NCBI RefSeq assembly: GCF_013403245.1
Contig: NZ_JACBNQ010000018.1
Location: 1-64,000 of the forward strand
DNA: 64,000 nt
Reading direction: 5' to 3'
Origin: Sedimentibacter hydroxybenzoicus DSM 7310
GTDB taxonomy: Bacteria; Bacillota; Clostridia; Tissierellales; Sedimentibacteraceae
The notes under the pieces are model-generated. The model ran no database searches, was not told where the DNA came from, and saw only the letters and a program-made list of their open reading frames with translations. Below are positions 25,936 through 33,283 of this stretch, one piece after another (within the stretch, counting starts at the first letter, position 1; every line of letters begins with the position of its first letter). The translations under genes were made by a program, and so were the position numbers.

Positions 25936-27609
25936 TCACATCAGTTTTGCTATCAGGCATAGAGACTTTGGATTGTTGAGCTTTTTTGCAAGGTCGTATG
26001 CTTTTTGGGAGTGGATTTTTGCCTCAGCATGATTTCCTTTTTTTATTTCTAACAATGCCTTATAATATTCTGTAAAATCTCTTCCCCAAATAACATTAAA
26101 TTTATCAAAATATTCAATGGATATATTTATTAAGTCTTCGGATTCTTTAAATCTGCCCATGCTGTACAGCGCTTGTCCTGCATTTGAATAAAATATTTCT
26201 AATCCCTTGACAACTGAGTTTTCCATACATATATTTATTGCTTTCATGAAATAATCATATGCCTCTTCATAATTTCCCAAGTCCTTGTTCATTTGACCTA
26301 AATAATTATAGCTTGCGGAAATGTTGACGCTGTACTTGCTGCTGAATTTATTCAAGCTTGAAAAAATGCTGATTGATTCATTTAATACTCTGTCTGCTTC
26401 ATTGAAATTTTCTGTCTTGATAAAATAAAGTCCCTGCAGCCTCAGGATGATGCCCCGTTCATCTATTATGTCTCTTTTTTCAAGAAGGTCTAAGCATCTG
26501 TTTATATAAGCATTCATTATATCGTTATTATCGGTTTGTATGGCATAGAAAATCATTTGTTTGTGATTGTTTAATAAATATATTAAATTATCAAGCTTAT
26601 GTGCCAGCTTAATGCTTATTTGTATATTTCTAATCCCTTTTTCATATTCGCCTATGGAAATATAATATCTTCCTGCCAAATAAGAAGCTTCCATTTTTAT
26701 TTTAATGTACTCTGTATCCAAATCATCTATGACAGTTAAATCCTTTTCGATATCTTTCAGTTCTGACTCAATATCCGAAATATTTGAAGTGCTTAAAGCA
26801 TCTATTGTTTCTGATGATAAAGACGGATAAGTTTCATGGTACATGGTATAGTAATAGGTTAAATTTTCAACCTTACTCTTTAAATTGGTATAATTGCCGT
26901 TATGGTCGGAATTAATTGTATTTTTCAGATCTAAAATTTCTTTGAACAGCTTTCTCGTTTTTATTTCAGGTTCAACATCCAAATCGTTTTTCAATACGTT
27001 CGAAAGTTCATAATAAAGCTTGATTGCTTTATTGTAATCCTCTGACAATGCATGTACCCTCATCAGATAGCGGTAGTTTTTTTCATTGTAAGGGTCATTT
27101 TTTATTAAAATATTTCCGTATTTTTCTATGCTTCTGTAGTCGCTGACACTGATGAGTTCATTAATTTTTTTATGTACCGATTTAATATAAATTTCTTTAT
27201 AGTAATCTCTTTTTTCCTGTATCCAGCTTTCAAAATCATAGCAGTTTTTCACAGAAAAGTTCATTAAAAAGTTGCCGGTATACAAATTAACCGCGTTTGT
27301 TTCGGTGATATTGTCTGTATCTGAGTCAACTTTTAAATCGTTTGAAAATTCTATTACGGATTTTGAATTGGAAAAAATATTTTCTATTGTGCTCGTCTTT
27401 ATTTTATACAGAGCATCTCTTAAGCTTTTTCTGCCTGTTTTCTCTGCTGATTCTGACCAAAACATGTTTATTGCTTCTTCTCTGGATACTTTTTTGTTTA
27501 TGAGGACGTAGTAAAATAAGGCCTCCGATTTTTTGTACGGAAAGCTTATCAATTTATTATTAAGTTTTACCGACGGAGTCCCAAACAGCTTTACAGAAAT
27601 AATATCCAT
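25936..27609 (-). CDS. SARP-type transcriptional activator (BTAD and TPR), likely hut regulator
   Basis: A 557-aa protein. The N-terminal OmpR-like winged helix (about 1-90: KLFGTPSVKLNNKLISFPYKKSEALFYYVL, ...KSLRDALYKIK) is followed by a bacterial transcriptional activator domain (about 95-240: YDFESWIQEKRDYYKE, NDPYNEKNYRYLMRVHAL) and tetratricopeptide-like repeats (about 300-550: YNYLGQMNKDLGNYEEAYDYF). SARPs bind heptameric direct repeats next to the -10 box, and such a repeat sits in the divergent hutU promoter. The ATG has a GAGGT site. It lacks the NTPase domain of larger relatives. That it controls hut is inference from position and the DNA repeat. Confidence 0.85.
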   Translation of the reverse strand: MDIISVKLFGTPSVKLNNKLISFPYKKSEALFYYVLINKKVSREEAINMFWSESAEKTGRKSLRDALYKIKTSTIENIFSNSKSVIEFSNDLKVDSDTDNITETNAVNLYTGNFLMNFSVKNCYDFESWIQEKRDYYKEIYIKSVHKKINELISVSDYRSIEKYGNILIKNDPYNEKNYRYLMRVHALSEDYNKAIKLYYELSNVLKNDLDVEPEIKTRKLFKEILDLKNTINSDHNGNYTNLKSKVENLTYYYTMYHETYPSLSSETIDALSTSNISDIESELKDIEKDLTVIDDLDTEYIKIKMEASYLAGRYYISIGEYEKGIRNIQISIKLAHKLDNLIYLLNNHKQMIFYAIQTDNNDIMNAYINRCLDLLEKRDIIDERGIILRLQGLYFIKTENFNEADRVLNESISIFSSLNKFSSKYSVNISASYNYLGQMNKDLGNYEEAYDYFMKAINICMENSVVKGLEIFYSNAGQALYSMGRFKESEDLINISIEYFDKFNVIWGRDFTEYYKALLEIKKGNHAEAKIHSQKAYDLAKKLNNPKSLCLIAKLM

Positions 27610-27711
27610 ATTTATACCTCGAATTATGCTATTTTAATGATACATTATTTTTGGCTTTTTTTCAAATGAAACATAAAAGAGTTGTCATGCAATTTGTTTA
27701 CATGCAAAAAA

Positions 27712-27741
27712 ATTAAGTCTTACGCTGGCGTAAGACTTAAT
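27712..27741 (-). terminator. Perfect hairpin with a minus-strand T-run in the SARP/hut intergenic region
   Basis: ATTAAGTCTTACGC (27712-27725) pairs with the complementary arm 27728-27741. On the minus strand it is followed by seven T (27705-27711 are A). It therefore reads as a terminator for leftward transcription, placed before the start of the SARP gene. It is either an attenuator in that gene's leader or a block on antisense reading. Confidence 0.6.
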
Positions 27742-27841
27742 CAATATTTATAAAAAAACAAGGGGGAGAGGGTATTAATAAGTTGTACTTATTAACTATA
27801 AATTAATTATAAAGTTAAAAGCTTTAACTAATCTTAAAAAT

Positions 27842-27875
27842 TTAGACGTTTTTTAGACGGATTTTGTTGTATAAT
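27842..27875 (+). promoter_or_regulatory. hutU promoter with SARP-box direct repeat
   Basis: TTAGACG occurs at 27842-27848 and again at 27853-27859, an exact 11-bp period (7-bp unit plus 4). TATAAT follows at 27870-27875. The expected -35 position (27847-27852, CGTTTT) is non-consensus and is covered by the repeats. This is the layout of SARP-activated promoters. Upstream, TTAATAAGTTGTACTTATTAA (near 27774-27794) and AGTTAAAAGCTTTAACT (near 27813-27829) are further palindromes. Confidence 0.7.
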
Positions 27876-27902: not shown

Positions 27903-29924
27903 ATGAACAATTTAGACATTTCAAATTCTATGACCATAAAATTGGATGATGTTTTACCGGAATATCCGGTCTTTAAGGAAAATGTAAGAAGAGCTCCCAA
28001 AAGAGAGCTTACATTGAATGAAAGAGAAGTTAAGCTTGCATTAAAAAATGCATTAAGGTATGTTCCTGAAAGCTTGCATGAAAAATTGGCTCCGGAATTT
28101 TTAGAGGAATTGATGACAAGGGGCAGAATTTACGGCTACAGATTTATGCCTAAAGAAAGAATTTACGGTAAACCTATAGATGAATACAAGGGAAATTGTG
28201 TTGAAGGGAAAGCGTTTCAGGTAATGATTGACAATAACTTAGATCATGAAGTGGCTCTTTATCCTTATGAGTTAGTTACTTACGGGGAAACCGGCCAAGT
28301 GTGTCAGAACTGGATGCAGTATCAATTGCTGAAAAAATATCTGGAGCAGCTGACGGACGAACAAACCCTTGCGGTTATGTCAGGTCATCCCTTAGGTCTT
28401 TTTAAATCACATAAAATGAGTCCGCGCGTAATAGTATCAAACGGGTTGATGATAGGAATGTTTGATAATCCTCACGACTGGGCAAAGGCAACCGCAATGG
28501 GATGTTCAAGCTACGGACAGATGACTGCAGGAGGATGGATGTATATCGGACCGCAGGGAATTGTTCACGGTACGTTTAATACATTGATAAATGCCGGCAG
28601 AAAGGAATTGGGAATTCCGTCTGACAAGGACTTGGCAGGACATTTGTTTGTAACCTCAGGTCTTGGGGGTATGAGCGGAGCCCAGCCAAAAGCCATCGAA
28701 ATAGCTAACGGAGTCGGAATAATTGCCGAGGTTGATTATTCAAGAATTGAAACAAGGTTAAATCAGGGATGGGTGTCCAAGGTTACCGATAACCTTGAAG
28801 AATGCTTTACAGCGGCTCAGGAATATAAGGACAAAAAACAGACTATATCAATTGCTTACCACGGTAATATAGTTGATTTGCTGGAATATGCGGTAAATAA
28901 TAATATACATATAGACCTGCTGTCGGACCAAACCTCATGTCATGTACCATATGACGGAGGCTATTGTCCGAAGGGATTAACATTTGAACAAAGAACGCAA
29001 ATGCTGAATACAAATAAAGAAGAGTTTGTAAAGCTGGTTGATAAATCATTAGCAGAACATTACAGAGCAGTTAAAGCTTTGGTTGATAAGGGAACATATT
29101 TCTTTGATTACGGCAATGCATTTATGAGGGCAGTATTTGATGCAGGGATTAAGGAAATCGCCAAAAATGGTGTTGATACTTCAGAAGGCTTTATATTCCC
29201 GTCCTATGTAGAGGATATAATGGGACCGATGTTGTTTGATTATGGATACGGACCGTTCAGATGGGTATGCCTAAGCGGTAAGGAAGAAGACTTGAGAAAG
29301 ACGGACCATGCAGCGATGTCAGTTATAAATCCGGACAGAAGAGGTCAGGACAGAGACAATTATATATGGATAAGAGATGCGGAAAAAAATAAATTAGTAG
29401 TTGGAACTAAGGCGAGAATACTATATCAGGATGCTCTTGGCAGAAGAGATATCGCTTTAAAATTCAACGAAATGGTAAGAAATAAAGAAATAGGACCTGT
29501 GATGCTTGGCAGAGACCATCACGATACGGGCGGAACAGATTCACCATATAGAGAAACATCTAATATATATGACGGCAGTAATGTAACTGCCGATATGGCA
29601 GTACACTGTTATGCAGGTAATGCTGCAAGAGGAATGTCCTTGATAGCGCTTCATAACGGAGGCGGAGTAGGAATAAGCAAGTCAATAAACGGTGGATTTG
29701 GTATGGTATTGGACGGAAGCGAGAGAGTTGATGAAATACTTAAAAAGGCAATGACATGGGATACAATGGTAGGAGTTTCAAGAAGGTCGTGGGCAAGAAA
29801 CGAGCATTCTATCGAAACTACAATTGAATATAATAAAACGAACAAAGGTGATGACCATATAACGATACCTTTCGTTGCAAGCGATGAATTAATAGAAAAA
29901 ACATTTAAAAATTACATGAAATAA
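27903..29924 (+). CDS. hutU: Urocanate hydratase HutU
   Basis: It converts urocanate to 4-imidazolone-5-propionate with tightly bound NAD+. Length is 673 aa, the long form seen in many anaerobic Firmicutes (the Pseudomonas enzyme is about 556). Conserved stretches include SGHPLGLF, GCSSYGQMTAGGWMYIGPQGI, GLGGMSGAQPKA and DQTSCHVPYDGGY. The ATG at 27903 has a GGAGGTG site; the frame's upstream TTG lies in the promoter. It is first in the hut operon. Confidence 0.96.
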   Translation: MNNLDISNSMTIKLDDVLPEYPVFKENVRRAPKRELTLNEREVKLALKNALRYVPESLHEKLAPEFLEELMTRGRIYGYRFMPKERIYGKPIDEYKGNCVEGKAFQVMIDNNLDHEVALYPYELVTYGETGQVCQNWMQYQLLKKYLEQLTDEQTLAVMSGHPLGLFKSHKMSPRVIVSNGLMIGMFDNPHDWAKATAMGCSSYGQMTAGGWMYIGPQGIVHGTFNTLINAGRKELGIPSDKDLAGHLFVTSGLGGMSGAQPKAIEIANGVGIIAEVDYSRIETRLNQGWVSKVTDNLEECFTAAQEYKDKKQTISIAYHGNIVDLLEYAVNNNIHIDLLSDQTSCHVPYDGGYCPKGLTFEQRTQMLNTNKEEFVKLVDKSLAEHYRAVKALVDKGTYFFDYGNAFMRAVFDAGIKEIAKNGVDTSEGFIFPSYVEDIMGPMLFDYGYGPFRWVCLSGKEEDLRKTDHAAMSVINPDRRGQDRDNYIWIRDAEKNKLVVGTKARILYQDALGRRDIALKFNEMVRNKEIGPVMLGRDHHDTGGTDSPYRETSNIYDGSNVTADMAVHCYAGNAARGMSLIALHNGGGVGISKSINGGFGMVLDGSERVDEILKKAMTWDTMVGVSRRSWARNEHSIETTIEYNKTNKGDDHITIPFVASDELIEKTFKNYMK

Positions 29925-29935
29925 CGGAGGAAGAA

Positions 29936-30826
29936 ATGGAAAGAATTATTGAATGTGTGCCTAATTTCAGTGAAGGCAGAGATTTGCAAAAATTAGAGAA
30001 AATACTTGATGTGTTCAGAGGAAGACATAATGTGAAACTGCTGGATTATTCAAGCGACGAGGATCATAACAGAACTGTCGTAACAGTAGTTGGGGAGACT
30101 GAAGCACTGAAGGTTGCCATGGTTGAAGCAATAGGCAAGGCAGTGGAACTGATAGATTTAACCAAGCACGAAGGACAGCATCCGCGTATGGGAGCAGTAG
30201 ACGTCGTACCTTTTATTCCTATAAAAAATGTAACTGTTGAAGAAGCCGACGCGCTTGCTAAGGAAGTAGCAAAGGCAGCTTCTGAAGCTTATGGACTTCC
30301 GTTTTTCTTGTATGAAAAATCTGCTTCCGCTCCTCACAGAGAAAATCTTGCGGCTATAAGAAAGGGTCAATTTGAAGGAATGGCTGAAAAAATGAAGGAT
30401 GAACAATGGATTCCCGATTTCGGTCCGGGTACAATACACCCTACGGCGGGAGTAACGGCAATAGGAGCAAGAATGCCTCTTGTTGCTTACAATGTGAACC
30501 TTGGAACCAATAACCTTGAGATTGCAAGCAAGATAGCAAAGAATGTAAGGTTTATGAATGGCGGCTTCAGGTACGTTAAAGCTTTGGGTATTGAGCTTGA
30601 AGACAGAGGTATAGTCCAGGTTTCAATGAACTTAACCGATTATACAAAGACGTCAATTTACAGAGTGTTTGAAACAGTAAAAATGGAAGCTGAAAGATAT
30701 GGAGTTAATGTTGTCGGAAGTGAAATAGTGGGACTCGTTCCTTTACAGGCACTTGTAGATACGGCTGATTACTATTTGAGATTAGAAAACTTTAACTTTA
30801 ATCAGGTATTGGAGACACGCCTGTGA
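29936..30826 (+). CDS. ftcD: Glutamate formimidoyltransferase FtcD
   Basis: It transfers the formimino group of N-formimino-L-glutamate to tetrahydrofolate, releasing glutamate. The protein is 296 aa, containing the two formiminotransferase subdomains only (IIECVPNFSEGRD at the N-terminus; HPRMGAVDVVPFIP; GARMPLVAYNVNLGT). The cyclodeaminase partner is a separate gene, fchA, in the same operon. The gap to hutU is 11 bp. Confidence 0.96.
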   Translation: MERIIECVPNFSEGRDLQKLEKILDVFRGRHNVKLLDYSSDEDHNRTVVTVVGETEALKVAMVEAIGKAVELIDLTKHEGQHPRMGAVDVVPFIPIKNVTVEEADALAKEVAKAASEAYGLPFFLYEKSASAPHRENLAAIRKGQFEGMAEKMKDEQWIPDFGPGTIHPTAGVTAIGARMPLVAYNVNLGTNNLEIASKIAKNVRFMNGGFRYVKALGIELEDRGIVQVSMNLTDYTKTSIYRVFETVKMEAERYGVNVVGSEIVGLVPLQALVDTADYYLRLENFNFNQVLETRL

Positions 30827-30967: not shown

Positions 30968-32209
30968 ATGAGTAAGATTATTATAAAGAATGCATCTGAG
31001 CTTATTACCTGCAAAGGTAAAGCGCCGAAGCACGGCAAGGAAATGTATGATATCGGTATGATTAAAAACGGATGTGTTGTAATAGAAGATGGCATAATTA
31101 CTGATGTTGGAACGACAGACGATATACTAAAAAAATATGATGAGAACGAATATAGAGTTATAGACGCAGACGGTAAGGCAGTGCTGCCCGGATTTGTTGA
31201 TTCACACACACATCTTGTGTTCGGAGGCTACAGGGCTGATGAATTTTCGTGGAGATTAAAGGGTGACAGCTATATGTCCATCATGGAGCGCGGTGGCGGT
31301 ATTACCAGTTCGGTCAGGGCTACAAGAAACACTTCTTTAGATGAATTTATTGAAATAGGTAAAAAGAGATTAGACAAGTTAATTGCCATGGGTGTCACAA
31401 CAGTTGAAGGTAAGAGCGGATATGGCTTGGACAGGGAAACGGAAATAAGACAACTTCAGGCCATGAGGAAGCTGAATGAGATACATGAGGTTGACGTAGT
31501 TCCTACCTTTTTAGGGCCTCACAGTGTTTTGCCGGAATACAAAGGTAAGGAAGATGAATTTATTGATTACATGATTGATGTAATGAAAGACGTTGTAAGT
31601 GAAAATTTAGCTGAATTTGCCGATATATTTTGTGAGAAAAATGTTTTTACCGTAGAGCAGTCAAGAAAATTTTTATCTGAAGCAAAAAAGATGGGATTGA
31701 ATTTAAAAATACACGCTGATGAAATTGTGCAATTAGGCGGAACCGAGTTAGCTGTTGAATTAGGTTGTGCGTCTGCTGACCATCTGCTCCAGGCATCGGA
31801 CAAAGGTATAAAAATGCTTTCAGAATCAGATACGGTTGCAACCTTGCTTCCGGCTACGGCATTTTGCCTGAAGGAAGAGTATGCGAGAGCAAGAGAAATG
31901 ATTGATTCAGGATGCGCTGTAGCTTTGGCAACCGATTTTAATCCAGGGAGCTGCTTTACAAATTCTGTTCCATTGGTAATAGCACTTGCAGCCTTACATA
32001 TGAAAATGTCTGTGGAAGAGATAATAACAGCTTTAACGGTAAATGCAGCAGCAGCTGTTAATCGCAGCAATACTATAGGTAGTATAGAAGCAGGGAAAAA
32101 AGCGGATATTATAATATTAGAATATCCTTCAATACATTTCCTGCCTTATCATGCGGCTGTCAACATAGTAGAAACAGTAATAAAAAACGGAAAAATAATA
32201 GGAGAATAA
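30968..32209 (+). CDS. hutI: Imidazolonepropionase HutI
   Basis: It opens the ring of 4-imidazolone-5-propionate to N-formimino-L-glutamate. A 413-aa amidohydrolase-fold protein: metal ligands in DSHTHLVFGG, substrate region EFSWRLKGDSYMSIMERGGGI, KIHADEI, and the aspartate of ATDFNPGS. The ATG has an AAGGAGG site. It follows the repeat pair. Confidence 0.96.
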   Translation: MSKIIIKNASELITCKGKAPKHGKEMYDIGMIKNGCVVIEDGIITDVGTTDDILKKYDENEYRVIDADGKAVLPGFVDSHTHLVFGGYRADEFSWRLKGDSYMSIMERGGGITSSVRATRNTSLDEFIEIGKKRLDKLIAMGVTTVEGKSGYGLDRETEIRQLQAMRKLNEIHEVDVVPTFLGPHSVLPEYKGKEDEFIDYMIDVMKDVVSENLAEFADIFCEKNVFTVEQSRKFLSEAKKMGLNLKIHADEIVQLGGTELAVELGCASADHLLQASDKGIKMLSESDTVATLLPATAFCLKEEYARAREMIDSGCAVALATDFNPGSCFTNSVPLVIALAALHMKMSVEEIITALTVNAAAAVNRSNTIGSIEAGKKADIIILEYPSIHFLPYHAAVNIVETVIKNGKIIGE

Positions 32210-32210
32210 A

Positions 32211-32825
32211 ATGAGAAATCTTACATTAAATGATTTTACCGAAAAACTTGCCTCTAATTCACCTGTACCCGGCGGCGGAAGTGTGGCTGCAGTGTGCGGA
32301 ACATTAAGTGCCGCATTAGCGGAAATGGTAGCAAATTTAACCTTAGGTAAAAAGAAATACGTTCAATTTGAAGAAGAAATGAACTCAATAATCAAAAAAA
32401 CAGCCACATTGAGACATAAGCTGTTGGATTATATTGAGAAAGACAGCAATGCTTATAATAAGGTTATGGAAGCATATAAAATGCCTAAAGAAACAGAAGA
32501 AGAAAAGCAGCTCAGATCAAAAGCTATTGAAGAATATTCAAAGGGCGCGGCAATTGTACCTTTTGAAATTGCTGAAACAGCATATGAAATATTCCCTTTG
32601 ACAGAAATTGTTGTTAAAAACGGAAACTCGAATGCGATAACTGACGGTTTGATTTCGGCAATGCTTGCAAGAACCGCGGTGCTTGCAGGTATATTGAATG
32701 TACAAATTAACTTGGATTATATAACTGATGTTGATTTTGTAACCAAATACAGAACCTTAACAGGTGAACTTAAAGAAAAAGCGTGCGAATATGAGAAAAA
32801 GATATTAAATTATTCGCCGTTTTAA
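32211..32825 (+). CDS. fchA: Formimidoyltetrahydrofolate cyclodeaminase FchA
   Basis: A 204-aa helical protein of the FTCD_C family. It converts 5-formimino-THF to 5,10-methenyl-THF and ammonia. The signature SPVPGGGSVAAVCGTLSAAL is near residue 17. It starts 1 bp after the hutI stop with a GGAG site, so expression is tightly coupled. With FtcD it channels the histidine ring carbon into the one-carbon pool. Confidence 0.93.
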   Translation: MRNLTLNDFTEKLASNSPVPGGGSVAAVCGTLSAALAEMVANLTLGKKKYVQFEEEMNSIIKKTATLRHKLLDYIEKDSNAYNKVMEAYKMPKETEEEKQLRSKAIEEYSKGAAIVPFEIAETAYEIFPLTEIVVKNGNSNAITDGLISAMLARTAVLAGILNVQINLDYITDVDFVTKYRTLTGELKEKACEYEKKILNYSPF

Positions 32826-32845: not shown

Positions 32846-33283
32846 ATGGAAAAGAGAGGTATAGGAAAAATTGCATTATTGCTTTCTTTAGGCGACGGCG
32901 ACATTGAAAGCTTACAAAAATATTACGAAAATAAAAATTATATAATTTATCGCGGGCAGGCGGGCTCAATGGATTCGAAAAAGATTATAGCAGCTATTGA
33001 GACGGCTGCTTCGAGAGAGGATATAATAAGAGAAAACTATCATGAAGAACACGCTCTTTATCATGCTATTATAGAGGCTTTAAGCGGATATTGCAGAGGT
33101 CAGGTATTGCTTGGAGAGGTTTTAAGAAGTGCCGGTCTAACATTTACCATCGTAAGAGGTACATTAGTAGAAGATGAACCAAGCAGCGGAAATTGGATAG
33201 CGGTTGTTCTTTACGGACAAATCGGTTCTCCAAGAAGAGGCTTTGAGCATGAAGCAATAGGCATGGGAATACAGCCAATATAA
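32846..33283 (+). CDS. hutP: HutP, histidine-responsive RNA-binding antiterminator
   Basis: A 145-aa protein. The stretch NYHEEHALYHAIIEALSG, followed by GQVLLGEVLRSAGLTFTIVRG, matches the HutP core that binds L-histidine and a divalent metal. In Bacillus, HutP is the first gene of the operon and binds NAG-triplet RNA in the leader to prevent termination. Here it is the last gene, and the hutU leader is only about 20 nt, so its RNA target is elsewhere or internal. Confidence 0.93.
   Translation: MEKRGIGKIALLLSLGDGDIESLQKYYENKNYIIYRGQAGSMDSKKIIAAIETAASREDIIRENYHEEHALYHAIIEALSGYCRGQVLLGEVLRSAGLTFTIVRGTLVEDEPSSGNWIAVVLYGQIGSPRRGFEHEAIGMGIQPI

Follow-up and report, generated by a model that had tools for sequence, protein, structure and literature searches.

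To our knowledge, research on SARPs has dealt almost entirely with their role as antibiotic switches in actinomycetes. One of them, AfsR, is described as binding as a side-by-side dimer on repeats 11 bp apart that end 8 bp before the -10 element, with sigma region 4 resting on the SARP protomers in replacement of its contact with the -35 groove, and SARP target promoters are described as carrying direct repeats with a spacing of 11 (or 22) bp, of which the 3' one is about 8 bp from the -10 element (PMC10936776, in the sections relied on here). The regulators described for histidine genes include HutC, which belongs to the GntR family and regulates hut in Pseudomonas, and HisR, of the TrpR family, for which most work concerns genes of biosynthesis and transport (PMC9413887); this source, in the sections relied on here, covers HisR, T-boxes and attenuators, and SARPs are unmentioned in them. 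In the open full-text literature, among the matches listed, no work ties a SARP to hut or to fhs (encoding formate-tetrahydrofolate ligase) in Firmicutes, though other literature may hold some.

The stretch of 64,000 nucleotides of Sedimentibacter hydroxybenzoicus DSM 7310 analysed here (the window) presents a probable case of this kind. The gene at 25936-27609, with a probability of roughly 0.86, encodes a SARP-family activator dedicated to histidine fermentation, which would recruit RNA polymerase, via a pair of TAGACG half-sites, to the promoter of the hutU operon.

The regulator and the hutU promoter

The regulator, encoded on the minus strand (25936-27609), is a protein of 557 amino acids, in which Pfam recognizes BTAD (PF03704, 55.8 bits versus a cut-off of 22.1) along with TPR repeats, and which is divided into an OmpR-like winged helix (residues about 1-100), BTAD (residues 105-226) and a TPR superhelix (residues about 238-557). 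In the Pfam scan, Trans_reg_C was unmatched in the DNA-binding domain, and the N-terminus was therefore modelled as structure; as a VIA search with the whole model was swamped by TPR folds, the N-terminal part was modelled separately. An NCBIfam search assigned no name to the protein. The AlphaFold model of residues 1-236 (mean pLDDT 93.5) aligns in VIA with AfsR (Z 17.0 over 222 residues, rmsd 3.5) and with EmbR (Z 15.4), and six chains of AfsR and EmbR were the sole PDB matches for these residues in Foldseek at E 1e-3 or better. An OmpR-type winged helix followed by BTAD at the N-terminus, the arrangement by which the SARP family is recognized, is thus found in the Pfam match and the predicted fold together, and a SARP fold is predicted for the regulator. 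The C-terminal TPR superhelix aligns with MalT domain III (1hz4; Z 23.3, 294 residues) and with Rap (Z up to 27.1), and, judging from such folds, would be appropriate for a sensor that binds a ligand or a peptide. A cluster-situated SARP is located in an antibiotic cluster; the genes adjoining this regulator are hut genes.

The regulator gene is divergent from hutU, the first gene of a plus-strand operon composed of hutU (urocanate hydratase, 27903-29924; TIGR01228, 455 bits, cut-off 375), ftcD (glutamate formimidoyltransferase, 29936-30826; TIGR02024, above cut-off), hutI (imidazolonepropionase, 30968-32209; TIGR01224, above cut-off), an fchA-type gene (formimidoyl-THF cyclodeaminase/cyclohydrolase, 32211-32825; PF04961 above cut-off, the NCBIfam FchA equivalog below its own) and hutP (RNA-binding antiterminator of hut, 32846-33283; NF002838, 169 bits, cut-off 155). 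Upstream of hutU and on the same strand, the half-site TTAGACG is found at 27842-27848 (core TAGACG, 27843-27848) and again at 27853-27859 (core TAGACG, 27854-27859; TCGACG in nine other same-genus loci), the starts being 11 bp apart, and the -10 element TATAAT (27870-27875) follows 10 bp past the second copy. No -35 element is recognizable: at a spacing of 17 bp from TATAAT the upstream hexamer reads CGTTTT, and no option at 16-18 bp agrees with TTGACA at more than one of six positions. The earlier note had claimed a TTAGACG pair with an exact 11-bp period, a non-consensus -35 position and a SARP gene divergent from hutU, and all of these are borne out, the last by the BTAD-TPR reading frame and its AfsR-like predicted fold; its further claim, that the repeat lies 10 bp before TATAAT, is correct for the window, but this is the minority spacing, relatives mostly having 9 bp. 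Pairs of identical 7-mers 11 bp apart are found at 17 positions in the 64-kb window, overlapping positions counted, and the TTAGACG repeat alone therefore proves little, so that cross-genome comparison was needed.

A promoter of the SARP gene itself is predicted on the minus strand at 27637-27665 (TTGAAA-17-TATCAT), downstream of the terminator of an sRNA-like gene described below. Its two hexamers are also readable in L004 and L005, and the region holds four promoter-like sites versus 2.9 expected.

Conservation of the repeat and alternative explanations

The comparison covered the genome of the window and 60 relatives (n = 61). The SARP gene is divergent from hutU in 10 same-genus loci, the window included, and an alignment of these intergenic regions, a check that the earlier note had proposed, reveals that 10/10 pair-bearing loci keep both half-sites, their 11-bp period and the -10 element, in the order of TAGACG, a spacer of five bases, TCGACG (replaced by TAGACG in the window) and TATAAT, with 9 bp between the second hexamer and the -10 element in nine loci and 10 bp in the window alone. 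The outcome that the note had named as refuting, loss of the repeat or of its period in relatives with the gene pair, is thus not seen in these loci. A strict motif (TMGACG-N5-TMGACG-N7..13-TATAAT) has 13 matches among the 61 genomes, one per genome, versus none for the reversed motif, and all 13 precede hutU, in the 10 divergent pairs and in G013, G024 and G056, the last belonging to another family of the order. An ortholog of the SARP, called at a chosen cut of E below 1e-30, is present in 21/61 genomes, and a loose motif (TAGACG-N7-GAYG-N8..10-TANNNT) is found in 20 of these 21 versus one of the 40 genomes without the ortholog (p about 7e-14, a value that overstates independence, as the genomes are related); in the one ortholog-less genome with a match, G002, that match is inside a coding frame. 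The 31 matches to the loose motif are located before hutU (17), fhs (8, in eight genomes), a focA-like gene for a formate transporter (1, in one genome) and a folate ECF transporter gene (1), with the remaining four inside or across coding frames. The reversed loose motif is approximately as frequent (30 matches), and therefore it is position, not match number, that is informative. When the two half-sites and the -10 element were scored upstream of hutU, 3 mismatches or fewer were found in 18 of 22 rows with the SARP, and fewer than 5 in none of 31 rows without it (G022 being without upstream DNA), while shuffled upstreams gave 30/1080 at 4 mismatches or fewer, 20 of the 1080 deriving from an empty sequence. 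The four misses among the SARP-bearing rows are G010, which matched a poor 40% segment, G045b, a second, diverged hutU, both counted as misses, and G033 and G049, in which the motif precedes an fhs gene that itself precedes hutU.

At the -35 position of the repeat-bearing promoters, the match to TTGACA is 1-3 of 6 (17 genomes checked), which is consistent with a contact of the SARP to RNA polymerase and sigma region 4. As 9 bp after a hexamer correspond to 8 bp after a heptamer, we infer from this geometry, taken with the poor -35 match and by analogy, an AfsR-like mode of activation at these promoters. The opposite proposal, of a SARP that binds the repeat but represses hutU until relieved by histidine, is improbable. 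Divergent catabolic regulators are often repressors, and a site covering the -35 region can block polymerase. Moreover, while the repeat is absent before hutU in seven SARP-less same-genus genomes (G001, G002, G005, G011, G012, G015, G023), in which the sRNA-like gene is kept, a TATAAT string is left in the hutU leader of three of the seven, and a repressor would allow this too. However, promoters with the repeat combine a conserved -10 element with a lack of -35, so the bare hutU promoter should be weak, which speaks for activation by the SARP.

Further evidence comes from loci fetched with the regulator alone. A profile built from an alignment (A1) of 18 regulators was run over genome contigs, and the closest 75 of 272 relatives were kept. 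The association of the regulator with hut is widespread in Firmicutes: 57 of these 75 loci have a clear hutU, hutH or hutI (59 at a laxer cut), and the names under which they are recorded include Clostridium, Alkaliphilus, Blautia, Veillonella, Acidaminococcus, Peptoniphilus and Vagococcus. In the 2.68 Mb of these loci, both strands counted, the loose motif has 45 matches and the reversed one none, and 42 of the 45 are positioned within 450 bp before hutU (22), ftcD (10), fhs (8) or hutH (2). In upstream regions (126, from 62 loci), NGAYG comes after AGACG at an offset of 11 in 44 cases, and no other offset between 5 and 35 has more than 3; from there, TATAAT with one mismatch or none follows 9 bp on in 39 cases, the next commonest gap having 7 cases. 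Of 63 loci whose target start was usable, all 13 positions of the motif are matched in 36 and 12 in 8, thus 44/63, with no reversed string above 11 of 13; the gap to the -10 element in the 44 is 9 bp in 41 and 10 bp in three, and Sedimentibacter-type loci account for eight of the 44. The other 19, among them five Veillonella and two Peptoniphilus, fall short of 12/13, so that the rule is not universal, or in these loci the sites have diverged or fall beyond the scanned stretches. Four loci (L118, L119, L134, L147) possess two SARP paralogues near each other.

A chance origin of the repeat is rejected on the strict-motif counts, the regulator-fetched loci, the peak at offset 11 and the 13-position scores. 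The claims of the earlier note, that the SARP probably controls histidine degradation and that the promoter has the classical SARP layout, are supported, the former by the motif tracking the regulator and by the position of its matches at hut and one-carbon genes, and the latter by repeats 11 bp apart that end, in most relatives, 8 bp after the heptamer from the -10 element, the gap after the window's second copy being 10.

It is marginally less probable than repression that a different response regulator, of the OmpR/PhoB type, uses the repeat as its site, with the SARP gene only a neighbour. Response regulators of this type use 11-bp repeats too, the winged-helix class is common to them and to SARPs, and divergent neighbour genes need not be regulators. 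Yet the motif follows the SARP ortholog across the 61 genomes, in five of them (G013, G024, G025, G026, G045) it is present both between the SARP gene and fhs and before hutU, and the association recurs in the 75 loci (closest of 272) that were fetched via the regulator alone. Least credible is that hut is controlled by HutP (32846-33283), an RNA-acting protein with a known site of UAG repeats, and that it recognizes the repeat's TAG triplets as RNA sites, a proposal favoured by the presence of hutP within the operon and by a distant hutH with a perfect promoter and then a leader terminator, a plausible HutP target, and rejected because the repeat, being upstream of the -10 element, is absent from the transcript of the hutU promoter, because its 11-bp period differs from the triplet spacing of HutP sites, and because HutP is encoded in only 4/75 fetched stretches (L103-L106; closest 75 of 272) and the motif is found in far more.

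A hut operon under HutP control of the Bacillus type would have, in its mRNA, a leader terminator with UAG repeats; the room between TATAAT (27870) and hutU (27903) is little, and such a terminator-bearing leader is seen before the separate hutH (terminator at L097 2576-2622). The latter gene is apart from the operon (L097 2511-2731, G000:C1); its promoter is a perfect TTGACA-17-TATAAT, and its leader contains a hairpin resembling a terminator; this leader, in which Rfam found nothing up to E 1, is a candidate target of the HutP encoded at 32846-33283.

Regulon, loss of the ATPase and an sRNA-like gene

If the SARP is an activator, as we favour, two protomers would bind side by side at the TAGACG half-sites, one helical turn apart, and the bound SARP would replace the -35 element, dock sigma region 4 and bring RNA polymerase to TATAAT at 27870, by which hutU-ftcD-hutI-fchA-hutP would be switched on. 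In most relatives, the regulator appears to be a large STAND form (SARP, AAA_16 ATPase and TPR), with the motif also before fhs and, occasionally, other THF or formate genes, and the long-form regulon would then cover the conversion of histidine to glutamate and formimino-THF, followed by formyl-THF and by formate and ATP. The inducer may be histidine, urocanate or a formimino/THF intermediate, presumably sensed by the TPR domain.

HutH, HutU and HutI convert histidine to formiminoglutamate, FtcD and FchA hand the one-carbon unit to THF, Fhs is able to convert formyl-THF to formate and ATP, FocA is responsible for formate movement and FolT for folate import, and, judged from these enzyme functions, the regulon is metabolically coherent. 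The folate ECF transporter gene with the SARP motif upstream (L239 1-342, minus strand, G010:C283; TIGR04518) suggests that folate uptake can join the regulon. The motif precedes fhs in all three long-type genomes tested (G013, G024, G026), and in 0/16 full or near-full fhs copies of nine short-type genomes, G007, the tenth, being without an fhs match and four fragments in G014 being unscored.

Most homologues are of about 950-1020 amino acids, versus 557 for the window protein. An insertion between BTAD and TPR is present in 10/18 aligned homologues, and AAA_16 was found in all four of these ten that were scanned, while the ATPase is missing from the window protein and seven aligned relatives. 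In a tree of the 18 regulators, which left out G007 and G019, the eight ATPase-less proteins form one clade nested among the ten long ones with a support of 100/100, and therefore the ATPase was lost once. The loss is not genus-wide, as the Sedimentibacter genomes G013 and G024 retain the long form. Large SARPs are distinguished by a nucleotide-binding oligomerization ATPase between BTAD and TPR, which the window protein lacks; it is derived from large SARPs and is not itself one. We give about even odds to a broader scenario, in which, in anaerobic Firmicutes, the ancestral regulator dedicated to inducing the fermentation of histidine to formate was a STAND-type SARP, with hut, fhs and, in some cases, the transport of formate and the uptake of folate tied together by one 11-bp repeat code. 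In this scenario, a single event would then have removed the ATPase switch from one clade of Sedimentibacter, and what remained would be a SARP under the control of the TPR domain only, with a regulon shrunk toward the hutU promoter. If this is true, the loss in Sedimentibacter presents a natural experiment on the role of the ATPase.

The region between the SARP gene and hutU also holds an sRNA-like gene (27706-27801, minus strand), with a 5' hairpin, an invariant C-rich single strand (CUCUCCCCCUUG), a U-rich stretch and an intrinsic terminator (27711-27742). Its fold has a z of -7.2 on the minus strand versus -4.3 for the plus-strand control, and the terminator has changes on both sides at 5/12 pairs in 19 sequences, the consensus fold being without the 5' hairpin. 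A covariance model (R1) matched 23/61 genomes, namely the 19 used in building it and G008, G016, G020 and G025, and in G016 and G020 it is matched without a match for hutU. The gene is also present where the SARP is missing, and it is duplicated in tandem in G018. Rfam found nothing at gathering in the whole window, and only two sub-threshold, chance-like matches in the intergenic region. A box, CTTAAGATTA(C/G)TTAAAG (27822-27837, minus strand), is present with small variations 10 bp upstream of the -10-like element of this gene (27806-27811), and, from its sequence, looks like a putative site for a further regulator. A palindrome at 27712-27741 was considered as an operator of the SARP and rejected in that role, being a minus-strand terminator hairpin with compensatory changes and followed by a minus-strand T run in 19/19 sequences. 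The sRNA-like gene is probably independent and outside the SARP switch, for which it is not needed; it could pair with ribosome-binding sites.

Significance and comparison with known systems

Breakdown of histidine by gut anaerobes has been reported to compete with formation of imidazole propionate (PMC13320830). The strains in that study of gut histidine pathways, whose text as consulted here is free of the terms 'regulator,' 'SARP' and 'operon,' include A. intestini and B. coccoides, read here as Acidaminococcus and Blautia, and loci recorded under both genus names, among the closest 75 of 272, carry the regulator beside hut genes, therefore naming a testable regulator for a health-linked pathway. 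Based on comparative sequence data, it appears that in many gut and sediment anaerobes a SARP-type regulator switches on the histidine-fermenting genes via a two-part site whose spacing is kept in distant species. The novelty is in SARP-type control moved into amino acid fermentation, with fhs as a second target: in another phylum, primary catabolism is served by a predicted SARP fold and by the promoter geometry of SARPs, and the regulon can be read from the sequence. As versions with and without the ATPase share one genus, the system is tractable with respect to both -35 replacement and signal sensing by ATPase and TPR.

As to the known systems, HutP, HutC and HisR are the other known regulators of histidine genes; they are of classes different from SARP, and HutP is even encoded in this operon. 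The likeness to MalT domain III and to the RRNPP receptors (Rap, NprR, PlcR) is limited to the TPR superhelix at the C-terminus of the regulator, TPR folds matching widely, with no common ligand or DNA-binding domain seen. EmbR of Mycobacterium tuberculosis has the winged-helix and BTAD fold of the window regulator and other targets, and possesses an FHA domain in place of the ATPase and TPR. The large SARP AfsR of Streptomyces coelicolor has a fold in common with the N-terminal 236 residues of the regulator at an identity of about 15%, and the layout of its sites, with repeats 11 bp apart, 8 bp (after the heptamer) to the -10 element and no -35, is also the layout of the hutU promoter. The long Firmicutes homologues resemble AfsR further, in that ATPase and TPR are also present, unlike the window regulator, which is without the ATPase. 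However, while AfsR targets afsS and antibiotics, the Firmicutes regulator is associated with the half-site TAGACG and with histidine and one-carbon fermentation in low-GC anaerobes.
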